64,000 bases of DNA from Mesoterricola silvestris (lineage in GTDB: Bacteria; Acidobacteriota; Holophagae; Holophagales; Holophagaceae), in NCBI RefSeq assembly GCF_030295405.1, contig NZ_AP027080.1, positions 3,208,001 through 3,272,000 on the forward strand, given 5' to 3'. Positions 12,130 to 25,497 of the stretch are shown one piece after another. Both the position numbers and the translations under genes were made by a program. How positions within the stretch are numbered: the stretch's first letter is position 1; each line of letters opens with the position of its first letter. The notes under the pieces are model-generated. The model saw only the letters and a list, made by a program, of their open reading frames with translations, made no database searches and was not told where the DNA came from.

Positions 12130-15100
12130 ATGGCCCCTTTGCGGCTTGGACTCCGGACGCGGTTCGCCCTTCTCGCCCTTCTGGCCGCCCTGGCCGGCTG
12201 CGGAAGCAGTTCGGGAGGCAGCCCAACGGTCCCCGCGGACCCGTCGATCTCCGCCTTCTCGGCCACGCCCGCCCTCCTGACCCGCGGGGCCACGGTGGAC
12301 CTGACGGCCACCTACCGGGACGGCACCGGCACCGTGGACCACGGCGTGGGCGCCCTGGCCAGCGCCGCGGTGGCCCACGCCACGCCGCAGGAGGCCACGA
12401 CCTACACCCTGACGGTCACGGGCAACGGCAAGACCGTGACCCGGACGGCCTCGGTGGACGTGGTCGCGCCTCCGGTCCAGCCGGTGGTGCAGGCCGCGGC
12501 CCAGGCCACCGAAGGCCAGACAGCCCTGGCCGCCTCGGTGCCGGCCCAGAACGGGTGCACCTTCGCCTGGACCTTGACCTCCGGCACCGTCACCGCCGGC
12601 CAGGGCACCGCGCAGATCACCTTCACCGCCGGCGCCCCCGGCAGCCTGGGGATCTCCTGCGTGGCCACCAACGCCGCCGGCACGGCCTCGGCGGCGGGGA
12701 CCGCCACCTGCACGGTGGTCGCCGCGCCCCGGCTGGCCTCCTTCCTGGCGACGCCGGCCATCCTTACCCTGGGCGACGCCTGCGGCCTCACCGCCCAGTT
12801 CAGCGGCGGCACGGCCCTGCTGCAGCCCGGGGGCATCGCCCTGACCAGTGGCCAGACCGTCCAGGTGACACCCACCACCGACACCCACTTCACGGTGACC
12901 GTCACCAATCCGCTCGGCGTCAGCACCGCCCTGGGCCTGGACGTGCAGGTGGTGGCCCCGCCCGTGATCACCGCCTTCTCTGCGGCGGGGGACTGGCTCC
13001 CCATGGCCCAGGGCCTCACGCTCTCCGCCACCTTCAGCGGCGGCACGGCGGTGGTCCGGCCCGGGAACCGGACGATCCTCAGCGGCACGGCCCTGCCCTG
13101 GACCGGGCCGATGCCCGATCGCTTTGAACTGGCCGTCACGAACGCCGCCGGCCGGGTGGCCACCCTGCGCGCCCAGGCCCGGCCCCGCCGGGCGGTGGCC
13201 CTGGGCCGGAACGGCTCCTGGATGCTCAAGGACGACGGGACGCTTTGGGTCTGCGGCCAGAACGCGACCCAGATGCCCATGGGGTATCCGGACTGGACGC
13301 CGGACACCTCGGTGCCCACCCGGAACGCCGCCCTGACCGGCGTGGTCAGCCTCGTCGGCAACCAAAGCGGGGCCCTGGCCCTGAAGGCGGACGGCACCGT
13401 CTGGCACCTCGAGGCCAACGGCACCTTCCCGGCGGCCCTCCTCCCGGGCCTTCCCGCCATCACCTCCATCTCCAGCAGCGGCAACCACAATCTGGCCCTG
13501 GCCGTGGACGGCACCGCCTGGGCGTGGGGTTCCAATTTCAGCGGCGAGCTGGGGGACGGTACCACCACGACCCGCGCCACCCCGGCCCAGGTGCTGGGCC
13601 TCCCGGCCATCGAGGGCCTCCATGCCGGGTCCAACAGCAGCTTCGCCTTCGGGGCGGACGGCACGGTCTGGGGCTGGGGCAGCAACTACAACGGACAATT
13701 GGCCCGGGCATCGGGAGCCAACGTGCAGGCCCCGGTCCAGCTCCAGGGCCTGCCCTTTCCGGCCTCCCTGGCCCTCACCGGCAATGGCACCTTCGCCCTG
13801 GATTTCGAAGGGCGCCTGTGGGCCTGGGGCAACGTCCCCGGCAGCACCAACCCCACGACCGTGACCCGGCAGACAGACCTGCCCGGCGCGGTGCGCCTGG
13901 TCTCCGACTCCCGCCTCGCCGCCGCCCTGGCCCTGGACGGCACCCTGTGGACCTGGGGCCCCAATTATTCGGGAAGCCTCGGCACCGGAGACTTCGAGGC
14001 GCGGTCGTCCGCGTTCAAGGTCGCCCTGGGGCCGGTTCTGGATCTGGCGACCGATGGCGCGTCCACCCTCGCGCTGCTCCAGGACGGCACCTTCTGGACC
14101 TGGGGCGACAACAGCGCCGGCCAGCTGGGCGACACCATCCCCGTGGACCGCACCAGCCCGGTGGATCTGGCCATTTCCAGCCCCCTGACCGCCCTGGCGG
14201 CCTCCACCTGGTCCACCGCCGCCGTGACGGCCGATGGGGGCCTCTGGCTTTGGGGCCAGGATCCCCGGACCCCGGCCTATCGCTTCCTGACCGTGCCCAC
14301 CTCCGCCCCCGGTTTCGCGCCCCTGGCCCGGGTGGCCATGGGCTTGTACCAGGGCCTGGCCCAGCGGGTGGACGGCAGTCTCTGGCGCTGGGGCTGGGCC
14401 AATCCGGTCTCGGCGGACGATGGCTTTTCCGCCCAGGCGCAGGTCACCGGCCTCGGGCCCGTGGCCGGAATCACCTCGCCCGGTTCGTCCACGTTCTTCG
14501 TGCTCCAGGACGGCACCCTCTGGGCGCAAGGCAACAACAGTTCGGGCAACCTGGGCGACGGTTCCACCACCACCCGGCCCACGCCCGTCCAGGTGACGGG
14601 TTTAACCGACGTGCGTCAGGTCGCCGCCAGTTCCTGGCACACCCTCGCCCTCGACGGCGCCGGACGTATCTGGGCCTGGGGCGACAACTCCTACGCCCAA
14701 CTGGGGGACGGCACCCTGACCAGCCGGACCTCCCCGGCCCTGGTCCCCGGCTTCACCGGGGTGACCTCCGTCAGCGCCGGGTCCACCTTCTCCGCGGCCC
14801 TGCTGGCCGACGGCACGGTCAGCACCTGGGGCTGGCTGCAGCCCCTGGCCTACCGGGCCCCACCGGCCGTGCTGCCGGGATCGGCCAACACCCGGGCCCT
14901 GGCCGCCGGCCAGCAGCACCTGCTGACCCTGCAAGCCGACGGGACCGTGCGCTCCATCGGGAACGCCGGGAACGGGCAAACCGGCCAGGGCACCTTCAAC
15001 AGCCTGGCCACCCTGACCGCGATCCCGGGCCTCACCGGGGTCCAGGGCATCGCTTCCTCGGGCTACACGTCCTTCGCCTGGGGCGCCACCTTCGCCAAGG

Positions 15101-17792: not shown

Positions 17793-18058
17793 GGGATCTC
17801 CTCCCTGCCACCCTACGCGAAACCCCTTATTTTGGCCAATACGCTCGCATCCGAGGCGTGAACACCACGTCCCGAAGGGTTTCAACGTGAAACCTCTCAG
17901 CCGAAATTCGCAACAATGGATTGCCCGCATTTCCGGAGGAGACCAGGGAGGGCCGCCATGAAATGCCCACCGGCCAGGGTGTCACGAGTGAAGCCTACGC
18001 CCCGCTGGACATGGGGCGGACGACCTTCGGATCCAGATAGTCCTCGGCTGTTCCGTGT

Positions 18059-18232
18059 ATGTCTCCCCTGCTGAAGGGCATCCGGGTGGGTCTGCCGTTC
18101 TTCATGGTGCTGGTGCTCCTGGTGAATTTCGAGAAGTTCGGTTGGCGCGCCAGGCGGATCCTGGGGATCAAGATCGCCCTTGGGATTCTGTGCCTGGCGC
18201 TCTATCAAGCGGCCTCCGCCTACCTTCCATGA
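18059..18232 (+). CDS. small two-helix membrane protein
   Basis: A 57-residue reading frame with two hydrophobic segments: VGLPFFMVLVLLVNF and, after the basic loop WRARRILG, IALGILCLALYQAASAYL. The positive loop between them fits a hairpin membrane protein. ATG 18059 is the only start after the in-frame stop at 18038, and no clear ribosome site precedes it. It lies 65 bp upstream of the membrane-bound MutS-like gene on the same strand. It matches no small-protein family that I know. Confidence 0.4.
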   Translation: MSPLLKGIRVGLPFFMVLVLLVNFEKFGWRARRILGIKIALGILCLALYQAASAYLP

Positions 18233-18297
18233 CGGCTTGGCGCGTCTGCCGCTCCAGGCGGGTCCCGGATCCGGGCATGGTAGCCTCTGGGGATCCC

Positions 18298-19875
18298 ATG
18301 ACGAATCTGCCCGCCGACGCCCCGCCCGAACGCGACCTGGACCTGGTGCGGAACTATCACGTGGCGCTGGGGGACGCGCCCGGCACCGTGGACGAAACCA
18401 CCTGGCAGGACCTGGCCATGGATGAGGTGTTCACGAGGATGGACCGCACGGTGAGCTGGCCCGGAAGCCAGGTGCTCTACCGGTGGATGCGGGTGGTGGA
18501 ACCCGAGGACCGGGTCCTGGAGGAGCGGTCCCGGGGCTACCGGATCCTCCGGGACTGCGGGTCCTGGATGGACCGGGCCAGGGCGGTCCTGAAGCCCCTC
18601 GGGGATCCCGGCGGCGCCTTCCTGGCGCCCTTCCTCATCGTCGGGCTCCCGGAACAGCTTCCGCGCCCCTGGCTCTACGTGCTCTGCGCCCTGATCCCCC
18701 TGCCCTGCTTCGCGGCGTGTGCCCGGGTGCCCTGGCTGTTCCTTCCGGGGCTGGCCTTCCTTTGCGTGAACATCCTCATCAACACCGTCCTCGGGCCGAG
18801 GCTGGCCCCGTACTATCCGGCCTTCTCCAGGATCCACGCCCTCATCGAGGCGGGCCTAAGGATCGCGGCCCTGCCCGACGCGCCCGCCCTGCCGGAAATC
18901 GAGCGGCTGCGTCGGTGCCGCCCGGCCATGGCGCGGGTGCAGGCGCGCCTGAGCACGCTTTCCGTGGACCGCAGCCAGCTGTCGGAGCTGGCCGCGGCGT
19001 TCTTCGGCTACCTGAACATGCTGTTCCTCATGGATATCATCTGCTTCCTCCGGGCCGTGCCGGCCCTGCGGCGGGAACGGGAGGAACTGCGTTCCATCCT
19101 GGAGACCCTCGGGGCCCTGGACGCGGCCATGGGTCTGGCGCGTTACCTCCAGGACCTTCCAGAGGGCCATGTGGAGCCCGCGTTCACGCCGGACCGGGAC
19201 GTGGACATCGCGGGGGCCTGGCATCCCCTGCTCTCCCGCCCCGTGCCCAACGATCTGGCCCTGCGGAACCGGTCCTGCCTCGTCACCGGTTCGAACATGG
19301 CCGGCAAGACCACCTTCATCCGGACCATCGGGATCAACTGCCTGCTGGGCCAGACCCTCCATTTCTGCCTGGCCCGCCGCGCCAGCCTCCCCCGCCTCCC
19401 GGTGCAATCCTCCATCCGGCGCAGCGACCACCTGGAAGCGGGCCAGAGCTACTACCTGGCGGAGGTGGACCGGCTGCGGGCGTTCGTTTCCGCCGGACCC
19501 GGAGATCCGCCGAAGGTCCTGCTCATCGACGAGATCTTCCGGGGAACCAACACCCAGGAGCGCCTCGCGGCCTCCACCGCGGTCCTGGACCACCTCCAGA
19601 AGGGCAACCTCCTGCTGGTCACCACCCACGACCTGGAATTGGGCGAAGCCCTCGGGGCCAGCTTCGATCTCTACCATTTCTCCGAGCAGGTCGTGGATGG
19701 GACCTTCGGGTTCGACTTCAAGCTGCGCCCCGGCCCCGTCTACACCCGCAACGCCATCCGGCTCCTGGAACTCCGCGGGTTCCCCGCCTCCATCACCCGG
19801 GAGGCCCGCCGTCTCGCCGGCTCAGGGCGATCCTTCGGCAGCGAAGCCTCCCTTACACCCGGGCCGGCCAGGTGA
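18298..19875 (+). CDS. membrane-embedded MutS-family ATPase (MutS-related protein)
   Basis: Protein of 525 aa with the MutS ATPase domain at its C-terminus: Walker A LVTGSNMAGKTTFIRTIG, the SIRRSDHLEAGQSYYLAEV segment, Walker B VLLIDEIFRGTNTQERLAAS and the LLVTTHDLELG switch. The N-terminal half lacks mismatch-binding and connector domains. It has a MutS-core-like helical part (YRILRDCGSWMDRARAVL) interrupted by two or three membrane segments around residues 110-165 (LYVLCALIPLPCFAACA, WLFLPGLAFLCVNILI). Such membrane MutS homologues are widespread in Bacteroidetes and Acidobacteria; they are not mismatch-repair proteins and their role is unknown. The 3' end overlaps the convergent antitoxin gene by 23 bp. 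Confidence 0.88.
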   Translation: MTNLPADAPPERDLDLVRNYHVALGDAPGTVDETTWQDLAMDEVFTRMDRTVSWPGSQVLYRWMRVVEPEDRVLEERSRGYRILRDCGSWMDRARAVLKPLGDPGGAFLAPFLIVGLPEQLPRPWLYVLCALIPLPCFAACARVPWLFLPGLAFLCVNILINTVLGPRLAPYYPAFSRIHALIEAGLRIAALPDAPALPEIERLRRCRPAMARVQARLSTLSVDRSQLSELAAAFFGYLNMLFLMDIICFLRAVPALRREREELRSILETLGALDAAMGLARYLQDLPEGHVEPAFTPDRDVDIAGAWHPLLSRPVPNDLALRNRSCLVTGSNMAGKTTFIRTIGINCLLGQTLHFCLARRASLPRLPVQSSIRRSDHLEAGQSYYLAEVDRLRAFVSAGPGDPPKVLLIDEIFRGTNTQERLAASTAVLDHLQKGNLLLVTTHDLELGEALGASFDLYHFSEQVVDGTFGFDFKLRPGPVYTRNAIRLLELRGFPASITREARRLAGSGRSFGSEASLTPGPAR

Positions 19876-20077
19876 TTTGAACCTTCCGGTGCTTGGCAAC
19901 GCAATCCCGGAGGTAGAGATTGATCAGGCTTTGATAAGGCACGCCTGCCTCCGTGGCCATGGCCTTGAAGTAGAGCACCACATCCTCGGAAAGCCGCATG
20001 GTGACGGGCTTTTTCAGCTTGGAGGCATAGGGGTTCTTGCGGGCCTTCATTTTTGAGAGATCGTATTCTGCTTTCAT
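19853..20077 (-). CDS. brnA: BrnA-like antitoxin
   Basis: Protein of 74 aa, the antitoxin of a type II toxin-antitoxin pair. The C-terminal half is a ribbon-helix-helix domain of BrnA/CopG type (VTMRLSEDVVLYFKAMA, then GVPYQSLINLYLRDCV) that binds DNA and represses the operon. The N-terminus is charged and probably wraps the toxin. Its start overlaps the toxin stop by four bases (ATGA), the toxin-first order typical of brnTA. The 3' end overlaps the convergent MutS-like gene. Confidence 0.85.
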   Translation of the reverse strand: MKAEYDLSKMKARKNPYASKLKKPVTMRLSEDVVLYFKAMATEAGVPYQSLINLYLRDCVAKHRKVQITWPARV

Positions 20078-20361
20078 TTGGCTTCACCCTTGTAGAAGGC
20101 GCTTTCGGATTTGGTGGCAAGGCGCGCCGAAATGATTCGAATGACCGTACCCGCCCGGCGCTCGCAATGGCAGACGAGGAGCAGCCGAGGGCCGGAACTC
20201 AGGCCGAGCATGAGGAATCGATCCTCGTCTCCGGAGTGTTGATCGTCAAAGAACTGGACTGCAAATTCATCGAGGAAGACGGATTGTGCCTCTTCAAAAG
20301 TGACCCCGTGTTTCTTCTTGTTGGCGATGGCCTTGGCGGGATCCCATTCGAACCAAATCAT
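20074..20361 (-). CDS. brnT: BrnT-like ribonuclease toxin
   Basis: Protein of 95 aa of the BrnT family, RelE-fold ribonucleases that inhibit translation. Family landmarks are FEWDPAKAIANKKKHGVTFEEA at the start, the DQHSGDEDRFLMLGLS segment, and the C-terminal RIISARLATKSE with the Arg residues used for catalysis. ATG 20361 has no ribosome site; the predicted -10 box ends six bases before it, so the transcript is probably leaderless or nearly so. It forms an operon with the antitoxin. The promoter contains symmetric AATACNGTATT-type sequences, probable BrnA binding sites. Confidence 0.88.
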   Translation of the reverse strand: MIWFEWDPAKAIANKKKHGVTFEEAQSVFLDEFAVQFFDDQHSGDEDRFLMLGLSSGPRLLLVCHCERRAGTVIRIISARLATKSESAFYKGEAK

Positions 20362-20584: not shown

Positions 20585-22690
20585 GTGCCCCGTGACCCCG
20601 TGATGTTCGTGATGGCGCCCGGCGGCGATCTGCCGGCGTTCTCGGAGCACCTGGGCGCGGCCTACCTGCGCGCCGTCCTGCGGGGGGCCGGCATCGGCGC
20701 CGGCCAGTACCTGCCCCCGGCCCCGCCCACCCTCCCGGACTTCGCGACCCTGCTCCGGGCCCAGCGCCCGGCCATCGTCGGCTTCACCGTGTACGAGACC
20801 AACCTCTACCTGAGCCGGATCCTCGCGCGGATCGTGCGGGAGGTGCTGCCGGAGACCGCGGTGCTGGTGGGCGGCCCCAACGCCACCTTCAGCCCGGAGG
20901 AGACCCTCGAACTCCTGGGCGCCGACGGCGTGGTGCGGGGCGCGGGGGAGACGCTCATCGTCCCCCTGGCGGAACGGATCCTGGCCCGGGGCCGCACCGG
21001 GCTCGCGGAGCGGCTGGCGGACCTGCCCAACCTCGTCCTGGCCAGCCCCGGGGGCCCCCGGGCCACCGCCATCACCCAGCTCTCCAGCTTCCCGGAGGGC
21101 CTCGCGTCCCTGGACGACCTGCCGTCCCCCTACCAGTTGGGCCTGGTGGCCTCCCCCAGGCTGGGCTACCTGACGGCCCGGGGCTGCGACCAGCACTGCA
21201 CCTTCTGCAGCTTCGCGGCGGTGTCGGGGCACCGCATCGCCTTCCACAGCGTCGAGCGGGTCCTGGACGACCTGGAGGCGTTGGCCGCGCGCTTCGGGGG
21301 CGGCGCCCGGCCGCCGCGGGTGCAGCTGTACGACGACGCCTTCACCATCCGGCCCGGGCGGGCCCGGCGCATCTGCGAAGGGATCCTGGACCGGGGCCTC
21401 CGCCTGGAACTCACCGCCATGACCCGGGCCGACCGGGTGGACGCGGACCTGCTCCGGCTCATGCGCAGGGCCGGGTTCACGGGCCTCTGCTTCGGCCTGG
21501 AATCCGGCTCGCCCAGGGTGCTCAGGGCCATCGGCAAGGTCCGGGCCCCCGAGACGCGGGTGGATCCGGAGCTGGCCCGGGAGCGGGGCTTCCTGGATTC
21601 CGTGCGGGCCGCGGTGGCCGCGGCCCGGGAGGCGGGCATGGACGTGGAGACCAGCGTCATCCGAGGCCTGCCCGGGGAGACGGCGGAGGACTGGCGGGCC
21701 ACCACCGAATTCGTGGGTTCCCTGGGCCTGGAGGCCTGCGCCGACAACATCCTGTCCCTCATGCCCGGAACGCCGCTCCACCGGTCGCGCCGGCGCTTCG
21801 GCCTGGATGCCCGGCGGGACCCGGCCTCCCAGGCCTGGGTCACGACCCATGCCCATGCGGTGGGGTCCTGGCCGCCGGTGCCGGGCAGTTCCCTCTTCCA
21901 GCGCAACTGGCGGGAGGGGCAGGCCCTGGCCGACGCTCTGTGCGGCCGCGTGCCCGAGGGGCCCGGGTCCGGCGCCGCCGTGGTGGTGGCCCATGGCCTG
22001 GGCCCCACGCCGGCCTTCGCCGGGTGGCTCAGCCAGGTGCTGGCCCTGGGCGGCCTGCTCCTGGTGCTGGACAGCCCCGAGGAGGAGGCCCCCCGCTGGG
22101 CGGCGGCCCTGGCCCGGGCCTCGGTGCCCTATGGCGCCTGCCGGCTCCTCCGGCCCGCGGAGGAAGGGGGCTACCGCCTGGAACTCCTGGGCGGCGCCGG
22201 GGCCCACCGGGTGACCCTCCTGGATCGCTGGGACCGGGACCAGGCCCTGGCCCCCCTGTCCCTGGACGCCGCCGGGGCCTGCCGCATGACCGTCGGCCTC
22301 GCATCCGCCCCGGGCTTCCACCCCGCTCCCCTGGGCGAGCCCGGGGACGTGCCCTTCCTGGGCCCCGGCCTGCAGGTGGCCGATGCCTGCCGTTGGCGGC
22401 CCGGCCCTCCCCGGTGCCGGCACCTGCGCGCGGTGCACGTCTTTGCCGACGGGGCGGTGAGGCCCTGCTGGCACGGCCCCCGCCTCGGCACCCTGGGGGA
22501 CCCCTGGACCGCCCTGCTCGCCGCCGCGGACCGCCACTCCTGTCCCCTGGCCACGGAGGGGAACGGCGCCACCCTCGCGGCCCTGGATCTTGCTTCCCAG
22601 ATGGCCTGGCTCTTCCCCCCGAGGCGGGGACCCGGCCCTTCCCCGAACGCCTCGGACAACCCAGGAGCGGATCATGGAATCCATGAATGA
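20585..22690 (+). CDS. B12-binding-type radical SAM enzyme with Cys-rich C-terminal domain
   Basis: Enzyme of 701 aa. Residues about 5-140 are a cobalamin-binding-like Rossmann domain (VLVGGPNATFSPEETLELLG, VVRGAGETLI). Residues about 190-420 are the radical SAM barrel, with the 4Fe-4S motif GCDQHCTFCSF (CxxxCxxC) and the SAM-side LCFGLESGSPRVLRAIGK and VIRGLPGET segments. The last 80 residues hold four further Cys (DACRW, RCRHL, VRPCWHG, HSCPL) around FADGAVRPCWHG..LGTLGD, resembling a SPASM/twitch auxiliary cluster domain. Start GTG 20585 has GGAGG nine bases upstream. It overlaps the start of a small peptide gene by 17 bases. Substrate unknown; C-methylation or peptide modification are possible. 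Confidence 0.85.
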   Translation: MPRDPVMFVMAPGGDLPAFSEHLGAAYLRAVLRGAGIGAGQYLPPAPPTLPDFATLLRAQRPAIVGFTVYETNLYLSRILARIVREVLPETAVLVGGPNATFSPEETLELLGADGVVRGAGETLIVPLAERILARGRTGLAERLADLPNLVLASPGGPRATAITQLSSFPEGLASLDDLPSPYQLGLVASPRLGYLTARGCDQHCTFCSFAAVSGHRIAFHSVERVLDDLEALAARFGGGARPPRVQLYDDAFTIRPGRARRICEGILDRGLRLELTAMTRADRVDADLLRLMRRAGFTGLCFGLESGSPRVLRAIGKVRAPETRVDPELARERGFLDSVRAAVAAAREAGMDVETSVIRGLPGETAEDWRATTEFVGSLGLEACADNILSLMPGTPLHRSRRRFGLDARRDPASQAWVTTHAHAVGSWPPVPGSSLFQRNWREGQALADALCGRVPEGPGSGAAVVVAHGLGPTPAFAGWLSQVLALGGLLLVLDSPEEEAPRWAAALARASVPYGACRLLRPAEEGGYRLELLGGAGAHRVTLLDRWDRDQALAPLSLDAAGACRMTVGLASAPGFHPAPLGEPGDVPFLGPGLQVADACRWRPGPPRCRHLRAVHVFADGAVRPCWHGPRLGTLGDPWTALLAAADRHSCPLATEGNGATLAALDLASQMAWLFPPRRGPGPSPNASDNPGADHGIHE

Positions 22691-22883
22691 GAAGGACTTG
22701 CGGATGGCGGCGGGGGATGCCCTCGTGGACGCGGTGAAGGCCCACCTGGCGGAGCTTCAGGCCCAGGGCCTGACGGCGGAGCAGATCATGCAGGCCGTGG
22801 CCGAGACCTTCGCCCTGGATCGCCTGGGCAGCGTGGGCCGGCTCGTGCCCACGGGGCTCCTGAACGGGCCGGACGCCCAGTAG
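22674..22883 (+). CDS. small acidic peptide coupled to the radical SAM gene
   Basis: A 69-residue protein starting inside the end of the radical SAM gene, with AGGAG eight bases before ATG 22674 (a second ATG lies three codons later). The first about 45 residues are amphipathic helix (LVDAVKAHLAELQAQGLTAE, then IMQAVAETFALDRLG). The last about 20 are looser, with Gly, Val, Pro and Thr (SVGRLVPTGLLNGPDAQ). There is no Cys, no export signal and no family I recognise. Helical leader plus flexible tail next to a radical SAM enzyme is the layout of a RiPP precursor, but it could equally be a small partner subunit. A strong hairpin follows the stop. Confidence 0.6.
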   Translation: MESMNEKDLRMAAGDALVDAVKAHLAELQAQGLTAEQIMQAVAETFALDRLGSVGRLVPTGLLNGPDAQ

Positions 22884-22911: not shown

Positions 22912-25497
22912 TCACTTCAGGCCGCTGAGCAGGTACAGGCTCGAGGGCAGCTTCACCAGGTTGGCGGCCACCGCCTTTCCGCCGGGCGCCACGAAGGCGT
23001 TGGTGAAGATCTGCCCCCGGTCCTCGGTGGTCAGGGAAAAGGCCGGCTTCCGCCCGCCGGTCGCCAGGTCCAGGGCCTCGATGGCCAGGGGCAGCGGCCC
23101 CTGCTTCCACACGTAGATCCCCTTGGAGTCCGCCGTCCAGCCCGCCGCGAATTCCCCCGGCCGCAGCCCGGGAATGGGCCGGGGCGCCCGGTCCGGCGCC
23201 TGGAGGTCCACCAGGACCGTGCGCCGCTGCTCCTCGGCGAGGCAGGCGCGCCCGTCGGGGGAGGGCCGGATCCAGTCGGCTGTGCAGGTGGTGCCCTCCG
23301 GGCTGAGGGGCCGGGGCGGGCCGCCCTGGAGTTCCAGGCGCCAGAGCCGTGGGGGGCGGCCCGGGGCGTGCCCGGCGGCCAGCAGGGTCTTCCCATCCGC
23401 GGACCACTGGATCTGGATCAGCCCCCCCAGTTCCGGAACCGCCAGTTGGCGGGCCTTCCCCTGGGGTCCCGTGGGGGACAGGACGATGCTCACCGGGGTG
23501 CCGGGGCCGATCACCGCCAGCCAGGCGCCATCCGGGGACAGGGCGCCGACGCTGCCGCGGCCGAGGAAGGTGGGCAGGCCCCCTTCCAGGGTCCGGCTGT
23601 AGAAGGAGGAATCCGGGCCCTCCGGACGGGTGGCGGGGTGCGTCTGCACCAGGACCCGCCGGCCGTCGGCCGTGAGGCCGAAGAGGTTGCCCCCGCCCCT
23701 CACCGACAGGTCCTGGGGCTGGAGCCCGGGGCTCCAGATGCGGATGCTGGTGTCGAAGCGGGATTCGCTCAGGAGCAGGCGCCCCTGCCGGTCGGCGTCC
23801 TGGACGCACCAGGAACCAGGCATCTCTGCCAGCTTGCGCGCCCGGCCCCGGAGGGAGAAGGCGAGGATCTCGCTGGAGCCCCGCTCGCTCTTGGCGACGG
23901 TGACGATCTCCGCCCCCCGCCAGGCGAGGCCCAGGTACCGGGCCCTCTGGGGCAGGACCCGCAGCCCGCCCCGGGCCAGGTCCAGGACCACGATGGAGGT
24001 TTCGGCCAGGATCAGGTCCTGCTGGCCGCACTCCAGGAAGGCCAGGTAGCGCCCGTCCGGGGAGAACCGGGGGTTGGCCAGGTAGGTTCCCCGCTCCAGG
24101 CGCACCGTGCCCAGGGGCCACTCCAGGCGGAAGTGCCCCTGGAGGTTGCGCACCGCGGCCAGGTCCCCCGCGGGCGAGAAGTCCGCGGCGACCACGTCCT
24201 GTTCCAGTTCCCGGGGCGCGGTGCCCCGGCTGGCCGTCGTGGCCAGGGTGCCGCGGAAGAGCTCGATGGCGTCCACGTCGCGCCTGGGTTCGGTCTGCAG
24301 CGCCCAATCGCCCTTGGCGGAGAGACCCAGGAGCCGGGCCGAGACGCCGCCCGAAGGGAACTCCTCCAGGTTGTCCAGGCGCACGGTGATGAGCCGGGGC
24401 GGCCTGTCGTCCTGCAGGAGGTCGTAGACCACCTCCTGGCCGTCCGGGCTGAACCGGGCCCCGCCGATCTCCCCCTTCTGGAAGGTGATCCGGCTGAACT
24501 GGGGCGGCCCCGCGGCGCCCCGGGCCCAGAAGCCGCCGACCACGAGGAGCCCCGCCAGGGCGAGCCCCGCCGCTCCCCAGCGCACCCGGTTCCGCATGGC
24601 CCCGGTCCACCAAACTGTCGGGCGGTACCGTTCGGGCGAGGAGGTGTTCCCCTGGGACAGGCTGCGCAGGGCGAGGGCCAGGTCGTGGGCCGAATGGAAC
24701 CGCCCCTGGGGGTCCTTCGCCAAGCAGGCGTCCAGGATCCGCTCCATGGCGGAAGGCACCTGGGCGGTGGGGTCCAGGGTGGGCAGATCCTCCTTGAGGA
24801 TCGCGTTGAGCACCTCCACGACCGTGGGCCGCTGGAAGGGCCGCATGCCGGTGAGCATTTCCCAGAGCATCAGGCCGAGGCTGAACAGATCGCTGCGGCC
24901 GTCCACCACGTCGCCCCGGATCTGTTCGGGGCTCATGTAGGCCGCCGTGCCCACCAGGGGGCCCTCGTGGGTCTTCAGATCCCCCGCGATGAGGGTGGCG
25001 GTTTCCCCGGGCACGTTCCGCTGGGGGGTGGCGATGCCGAAATCCAGCACCTTCACGTGGCCCAGTTCCGTGATGAACAGGTTGTCGGGCTTCAGGTCCC
25101 GGTGGACGATGTTCCGGGCGTGGGCGGCAGCCAGGCCGTCGGCGACCGCGGCGGCCAATTCGGCCGCCTTCTTCCAGGGCAGGCGCCCCTCGTTGAGCAG
25201 CGCCCGGAGGGTGCGGCCTTCCAGCAGTTCCATGACCAGGTAGGGATGGCCGTCCTGTTCCCCCGCGTCGAAGACCTGGACCAGGTTCGGGTGCGACAGG
25301 GAGGCGAGGATGCGGGCCTCCCGCCGGAAGCGGCGCAGCCGCTGGTCGTCCTGGGCGAAGGCGGCGGGCAGGACCTTGACCGCCACGTTCCGGTCCAGAT
25401 TGGGATCGTGGGCGCGGTACACCTCGCCCATCCCCCCCGATCCGATCAGGCCGAGGATTTCGTAGGTGCCCAGGTGAGTACCGATCAACTGTGTCAT
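22912..25497 (-). CDS. membrane Ser/Thr protein kinase with TolB-like beta-propeller
   Basis: Protein of 861 aa. Residues about 10-275 are a complete PknB-type kinase: P-loop IGSGGMGEVY, catalytic Lys in VAVKVLP, HRDLKPDNLFIT, DFG in KVLDFGIAT, and APE-equivalent MSPEQIRGD. A membrane segment lies near 308-330 (AAGLALAGLLVVGGFWARGA). Residues about 340-855 are WD40/TolB-like (PD40) blades with repeated FSPDG, LSPDGAWLAV and WSADGKTLLA motifs, outside the cytoplasm. This kinase-propeller design is characteristic of acidobacteria. Substrate and signal are unknown. It is convergent with the peptide gene; downstream, a similar propeller protein is cut by the window's right edge. Confidence 0.93.
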   Translation of the reverse strand: MTQLIGTHLGTYEILGLIGSGGMGEVYRAHDPNLDRNVAVKVLPAAFAQDDQRLRRFRREARILASLSHPNLVQVFDAGEQDGHPYLVMELLEGRTLRALLNEGRLPWKKAAELAAAVADGLAAAHARNIVHRDLKPDNLFITELGHVKVLDFGIATPQRNVPGETATLIAGDLKTHEGPLVGTAAYMSPEQIRGDVVDGRSDLFSLGLMLWEMLTGMRPFQRPTVVEVLNAILKEDLPTLDPTAQVPSAMERILDACLAKDPQGRFHSAHDLALALRSLSQGNTSSPERYRPTVWWTGAMRNRVRWGAAGLALAGLLVVGGFWARGAAGPPQFSRITFQKGEIGGARFSPDGQEVVYDLLQDDRPPRLITVRLDNLEEFPSGGVSARLLGLSAKGDWALQTEPRRDVDAIELFRGTLATTASRGTAPRELEQDVVAADFSPAGDLAAVRNLQGHFRLEWPLGTVRLERGTYLANPRFSPDGRYLAFLECGQQDLILAETSIVVLDLARGGLRVLPQRARYLGLAWRGAEIVTVAKSERGSSEILAFSLRGRARKLAEMPGSWCVQDADRQGRLLLSESRFDTSIRIWSPGLQPQDLSVRGGGNLFGLTADGRRVLVQTHPATRPEGPDSSFYSRTLEGGLPTFLGRGSVGALSPDGAWLAVIGPGTPVSIVLSPTGPQGKARQLAVPELGGLIQIQWSADGKTLLAAGHAPGRPPRLWRLELQGGPPRPLSPEGTTCTADWIRPSPDGRACLAEEQRRTVLVDLQAPDRAPRPIPGLRPGEFAAGWTADSKGIYVWKQGPLPLAIEALDLATGGRKPAFSLTTEDRGQIFTNAFVAPGGKAVAANLVKLPSSLYLLSGLK

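Follow-up and report, generated by a model that had tools for sequence, protein, structure and literature searches.

The question raised by this locus is whether a 69-residue peptide, encoded by a small gene which begins inside the 3' end of a gene for a B12-dependent radical SAM enzyme, is the substrate of that enzyme. The locus lies in the window (the whole stretch of 64,000 nucleotides of Mesoterricola silvestris that was analysed), within a 4.99-Mb single-contig genome (G000), and has the following features:

About 20585..22690, plus strand: enzyme of 701 aa with B12-binding, radical SAM and SPASM-like parts (Pfam; ortholog in UBA706; alignment of ten family members)
20648..20956, plus strand: B12-binding domain, residues 22-124 (Pfam PF02310, E 9.8e-16)
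21173..21715, plus strand: radical SAM domain, residues 197-377, with C201, C205 and C208 (Pfam PF04055, E 5.3e-17; invariant cysteines in alignment A6)
22388..22543, plus strand: putatively SPASM-derived module, CRW (C602)-x8-C611-x16-C628, then C653 (tail model; alignment)
22663..22667, plus strand: AGGAG ribosome site of the peptide gene (sequence; kept in the DNA alignment with UBA706)
22674..22883, plus strand: gene of the 69-residue peptide, the proposed substrate or precursor (translation; ortholog L046:190-399; coding signature)
22815..22880, plus strand: conserved peptide tail LDRLGSVGRLVPTGLLNGPDAQ, residues 48-69, the proposed modification site (identity with UBA706 over residues 49-69; short motif also in distant partner peptides)

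The reading frame of the enzyme is open up to TGA 22688-22690, with its start being uncertain (candidates TTG 20579, GTG 20585 and ATG 20603). A sequence-only reading of this DNA had claimed a cobalamin-binding-like N-terminal domain and a CxxxCxxC motif, and both were borne out: the PF02310 and PF04055 matches each lie above the curated cut-off, giving the domain order of a B12-dependent (class B type) enzyme, and the motif (C201-x3-C205-x2-C208) is invariant across all nine members of alignment A6. A weak match to daptide_RRE (3e-4) was judged to be due to chance, being absent in seven relatives. An AlphaFold2 model of the full-length enzyme, made from a two-row alignment, reached a mean pLDDT of only 38.7. 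The enzyme gene has a GC content of 0.76 against a window mean of 0.69; its GC3 (0.94) equals that of the adjoining kinase gene (0.94), and for this reason no claim of foreign origin is made from base composition.

The C-terminal part of the enzyme contains the four extra cysteines that had been reported, at residues 602, 611, 628 and 653, with the stretch from 611 to 628 covering RHLRAVHVFADGAVRP. A search for distant relatives, which covered a phylum-wide sample and then the class of one match, returned eight enzymes in four other Acidobacteriota genomes (G202, G386, G516 and G519). These have 726-763 residues (one is cut by a contig end) and align with the window enzyme over its full length at 27-31% identity. 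In an alignment of ten family members most of them share a CRW-x6-C ... C-W-x-G-x-x-x-G-x-x-G tail, and most keep an eight-cysteine pattern, CX8CX16C...CX2CX5CX2C...C, which resembles the full SPASM pattern (PMC10452713). Several also match TIGR04085 SPASM weakly (3e-4 to 0.05, below the cut-off), and in one of the G519 enzymes (G519d) most of the second cysteine group is also lost. A tail model built from the eight distant members, with the window and UBA706 enzymes left out, picked out the window enzyme from 3847 ORFs, at about 2e-8, and matched no TPR-tailed paralog. The homology of the window module to SPASM-bearing relatives is significant, and the module retains C602, C611, C628 and C653. 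Most of cysteines 4-8 of the full pattern are missing from the window enzyme, which gave no match to TIGR04085 and has four C-terminal cysteines where SPASM requires seven or eight, as ligands of two auxiliary clusters. Twitch, or reduced SPASM, domains have three or four C-terminal cysteines and one auxiliary cluster (PMC10452713), a count which the four cysteines of the window enzyme would fit, with three of the four lying in a contig gap in UBA706. As judged from its sequence, the window enzyme carries a reduced four-cysteine, Twitch-like form of SPASM, and the earlier reading, which called the tail SPASM-like, was right as to its origin. A further B12-radical SAM protein (G428, 154.7 bits) lacks a SPASM tail and was not taken as a family member. 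A tblastn search of plasmids with the G202 relative gave no match at 1e-30, and a search of 398 Pseudomonadota genomes with alignment A6 at 1e-75, a set without a positive control, gave none.

The peptide gene runs from ATG 22674 to TAG 22883 and overlaps the enzyme gene by 17 bases, with its AGGAG standing 6 bases 5' of the ATG. Its GC content by codon position is 0.76/0.40/0.93, and the gap between GC3 and GC2 was never matched in 20,000 shuffles. This coding-type composition, together with an ORF of the same start, stop and frame in UBA706, shows that the gene did not arise as an ORF by mere chance; the claim of a 69-residue gene starting inside the enzyme end with its own ribosome site was therefore confirmed.

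UBA706 is a genus-mate recorded as Holophagaceae, phylum Acidobacteriota, and its enzyme, 73% identical to that of the window, is the sole ortholog found among 93 genomes of the class. Five other loci from the scan of genome contigs match the radical SAM region in part only and at low identity, and were rejected, leaving UBA706 as the sole true relative. In UBA706 the enzyme sequence breaks off at residue 600, where its contig ends, and is taken up again on a second contig from about residue 645, so that about 45 residues, including three of the tail cysteines, are unsequenced; the two contigs presumably adjoin, as suggested by the continuity of the protein and the shared downstream kinase. 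The UBA706 peptide gene (L046:190-399) encodes a product 61% identical to the window peptide in a gap-free alignment, with AGGAGCGG conserved, and has the same start, stop, frame and ribosome site. The overlap geometry of the two genes is kept, and the DNA of the two genomes has diverged immediately 3' of the peptide stop.

The C-terminal part of the enzyme was found in 2 of the 93 class genomes and the peptide in exactly the same two, with all further peptide matches in the class having E > 0.006 and being located in longer frames. An enzyme occurring widely without the peptide, named beforehand as an observation that would speak against the RiPP reading, was not encountered. The gene pair is sporadic even within the genus (two of six genomes).

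The two peptides differ most in their N-terminal part (25/48 residues identical, dN/dS 0.70), while conservation is highest in the tail, residues 49-69 (17/21 identical, dN/dS 0.17). This comparison of two sequences says that the tail is probably constrained, as would be the case for a fixed product or for the functional end of a subunit, and such constraint leaves room for the RiPP reading. A conserved tail would also be expected if a single fixed product were made on the peptide, which might be a carrier that is used repeatedly or might give rise to one particular small cofactor or signal; the enzyme would then act on that tail. PqqA for PQQ, MftA for mycofactocin and TglA for pearlins are analogues of this kind. 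A precedent exists in TmoD, a B12-radical SAM enzyme in a carrier-peptide (pearlin) pathway (PMC11002830). However, neither a PEARL ligase nor an MNIO, nor a partner of the PQQ or mycofactocin type, was seen among the genes adjacent to the pair, and the sporadic presence of the pair in the genus is unlike a core cofactor pathway, so that a role as carrier or cofactor precursor is considered quite unlikely.

AlphaFold2 predicted from the single peptide sequence two helices (residues 6-30 and 35-45) and two short strands (46-49 and 56-59), in a fairly ordered model (pLDDT 84.5) with low confidence in the last residues only. The helical first part had been foreseen, and of the flexible tail that had been proposed alongside it the last residues conform to the description and the strand-forming ones do not. 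The C-terminal residues of the peptide are GPDAQ, and both Tyr and Trp are absent from it. Foldseek with the peptide model gave no match below E 0.001, and NCBIfam and Pfam searches with the peptides gave no credible match. An ordered peptide conserved end to end in UBA706 might instead be a small accessory subunit, a partner in recognition, assembly or activation, with the substrate of the enzyme lying elsewhere. The surroundings of the pair would agree with this: the flanking genes that were checked include no adjacent transporter, protease/peptidase or recognition (RRE) gene, much as the sequence-only reading had it for transporters and peptidases. The peptides of the distant relatives bear against a subunit, as they differ in sequence and in position (upstream, downstream, duplicated) and vary in their tails in G519 and G516, and the duplicate peptides beside one enzyme (L075) fit substrates better. 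On these grounds an accessory subunit is thought unlikely, if less so than a carrier.

As to the other neighbours of the window pair, a BrnA/BrnT type II toxin-antitoxin pair (19853-20361, minus strand) lies directly upstream of the enzyme gene and has a GC content of 0.55 against 0.69 for the window. A MutS domain V ATPase without other MutS domains is encoded at 18055-19875 (plus strand), its closest NCBIfam families being MutS and KamC. Downstream lies a convergent Ser/Thr kinase-like gene, found in the window (22912-25497, minus strand), in UBA706 (L046:439-3027, minus strand) and in G202 (L063:10056-12491, minus strand); its recurrence may be due to chance, such kinases being common in the phylum. 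A gene for a pentapeptide-repeat protein is also located downstream of the window pair.

Six of the eight distant enzymes are flanked by a gene for a peptide of 47-71 residues with a strong ribosome site. In an automatic test such a neighbour was found at 6 of 8 family enzymes, compared with 2 of 64 other long genes, both of the latter through peptides bordering a family enzyme. The test missed the window pair itself, an antisense ORF having masked the peptide gene. In G202 a 47-residue gene lies 76 bases upstream of the enzyme, and in G516 one peptide gene lies directly upstream; in G519 there are three peptide genes near three tandem enzymes and two more before a fourth enzyme, with strong ribosome sites in all three genomes. 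The link is weak for a second G516 enzyme (G516b), where the peptide gene lies two genes upstream, and the G386 enzyme stands at a contig end, so that a neighbouring peptide would be beyond view. It should also be noted that class I lanthipeptide-type leaders (L074:3071-3328, 2691-2900 and 13076-13276, minus strand) lie beside three tandem B12-radical SAM-SPASM genes of G519, the first matching NF038153 at 2.6e-8 and the other two looking alike. At a further locus (L076:499-4502, plus strand) two different B12-radical SAM genes (591 and 743 aa) stand in tandem, following a 58-residue peptide gene at 115-291.

The G519 and G516 peptides have conserved N-terminal parts and variable tails (GIVYGFIYP, GIVYGFIVP, GIVNGFFYPIVFPQ, SAMYTIFLS, SAMCAIFLS and GVVFGFVRIV). 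Two duplicated peptide genes precede one enzyme in L075 (1192-1395 and 1516-1716, plus strand), and between them positions 5-60 show six silent changes and one replacement, and the last six residues two replacements and no silent change. Both patterns read as leader/core behaviour. The conserved N-part and variable tail that had been predicted is thus seen in G519 and G516 and is reversed between the window and UBA706, and the RiPP reading as a whole gained from the small peptide genes which usually accompany the distant relatives and lost from the conserved character of the close ortholog's tail.

Comparison of the window peptides with the G519 and G516 peptides by hhalign showed no significant similarity. 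A motif near the C-terminus, [FL]D-x(2,3)-[GS]-x-[VM]-x-x-hydrophobic-hydrophobic, is present in both the window and the distant peptide sets; it arises in 0.12% of shuffles of the window peptide, a frequency to be read with the motif having been chosen after seeing the sequences, and the G516 and G202 peptides deviate from its exact form. The lack of a detectable relation to the distant partner peptides is what would be expected of an independent small protein, unrelated to the enzyme and translationally coupled to it by chance. Against such a coincidence stand the perfect co-occurrence, the overlap geometry kept in UBA706 and the peptide genes beside most family members, and it is regarded as very improbable.

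It is considered fairly probable that the two genes form a RiPP-type precursor/maturase pair, in which the B12-dependent radical SAM enzyme encoded upstream acts on the peptide as its substrate; a small peptide gene adjoining a peptide-modifying type of enzyme, as in such pairs, is what the locus contains. The overlap would couple translation of the peptide, which has a ribosome site of its own, to that of the enzyme. The enzyme would bind the helical N-part, perhaps through its middle or SPASM-derived C-terminal region, and the LGSVGRLVPxGL tail would be placed at the radical site. There a 5'-deoxyadenosyl radical would take hydrogen from an aliphatic carbon of the tail and methylcobalamin (or an auxiliary cluster) would complete the reaction. 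C-methylation of Val, Leu or Pro would be the most likely outcome, because of the chemistry of ApyD and PoyC and because the tail has Val, Leu and Pro and no aromatic residue. Methylation is not certain, since B12-radical SAM enzymes can also form crosslinks, as does PbsB (PMC12257519). The product may either be cleaved and exported or have a role of its own as a small conserved molecule, be it a signal or a cofactor.

The precursor/maturase pair is favoured because of the co-occurrence, the stronger constraint on the tail than on the helix, the SPASM-tailed relatives and the recurrent peptide neighbours, as well as the variable tails in G519 and G516, the changes in L075, ApyD as best match and the lanthipeptide-type leader in G519. 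It is weakened by the conserved window tail, the lack of similarity between peptide profiles, the post hoc motif and the lack of an adjacent protease, transporter or RRE gene, and also by the weak peptide link of G516b, by the contig end at the G386 enzyme and by a fairly ordered peptide model which would fit a subunit too. It is possible, although held only tentatively, that the pair belongs to an undescribed RiPP family, so far seen in Acidobacteriota only, whose maturase fuses B12-binding, radical SAM and SPASM/Twitch parts and whose chemistry may go beyond methylation (for example methylation with oxidation or crosslinking), with the Holophagaceae branch having one fixed product and having lost the second auxiliary cluster. 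No description of a fused B12-dependent radical SAM and SPASM enzyme was found in the literature searched, which was mostly without subscription journals and is weak evidence; few papers in it mention RiPPs with radical SAM enzymes in Acidobacteriota.

Of the known systems, ApyD (NF050148) is the best NCBIfam match of the window enzyme (113.7 bits, residues 57-400) and is likewise a B12-binding and radical SAM enzyme whose gene is clustered with that of a precursor peptide. The score is far under the family cut-off of 750 bits and the match stops at residue 400 of 701, which places the window enzyme outside that family. ApyD is a proven peptide C-methyltransferase which methylates a Tyr, at its beta-carbon, close to the C-terminal end of the precursor (PMC10635010). 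It contains an RRE and acts together with MNIO, P450 and methyltransferase genes, which this locus lacks, and the SPASM-derived tail of the window enzyme is a further difference. The Tyr-Leu-Tyr-Asp-like end of an ApyD-type precursor and the MNIO and P450 genes were not found at this locus, the flanks being the kinase, BrnT/BrnA and the MutS-like ATPase.

The SPASM/Twitch maturases AlbA, PqqE, MftC and SuiB (TIGR04085) share a C-terminal cysteine module with the window enzyme, which differs from them in keeping only four of the cysteines and in its TIGR04085 scores, below the cut-off in relatives and none for the window. These four maturases are not known to have a B12-binding domain. The C-methyltransferases of PoyC, bottromycin and TIGR03975 (rSAM_ocin_1) use B12 and radical SAM on aliphatic carbons of ribosomal peptides, as in the methylation of Val by PoyC (PMC5682303). 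TIGR03975 matches the window enzyme at 3.8e-15, yet under the cut-off (55 of 282 bits); the locus has no proteusin-type precursor, and no SPASM module is described for this group. Other Holophagaceae B12-radical SAM proteins (L006-L033) are about 28-36% identical to the window enzyme in the B12 and radical SAM domains, with about 30% identity over the first 400 residues, and differ from it in their C-terminal parts, mostly TPR-like repeats, none of which matches the SPASM-tail model. In the reviews consulted, peptide-modifying radical SAM enzymes that depend on B12 and those of the SPASM type are treated as two distinct groups, and a family joining the two, with a peptide of its own for each member, would if true offer a compact and easily tested system of one enzyme and one substrate. 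The window pair is of a known kind, a RiPP-type radical SAM maturase with its precursor, and what is unusual in it is the combination of B12 with a SPASM/Twitch architecture.
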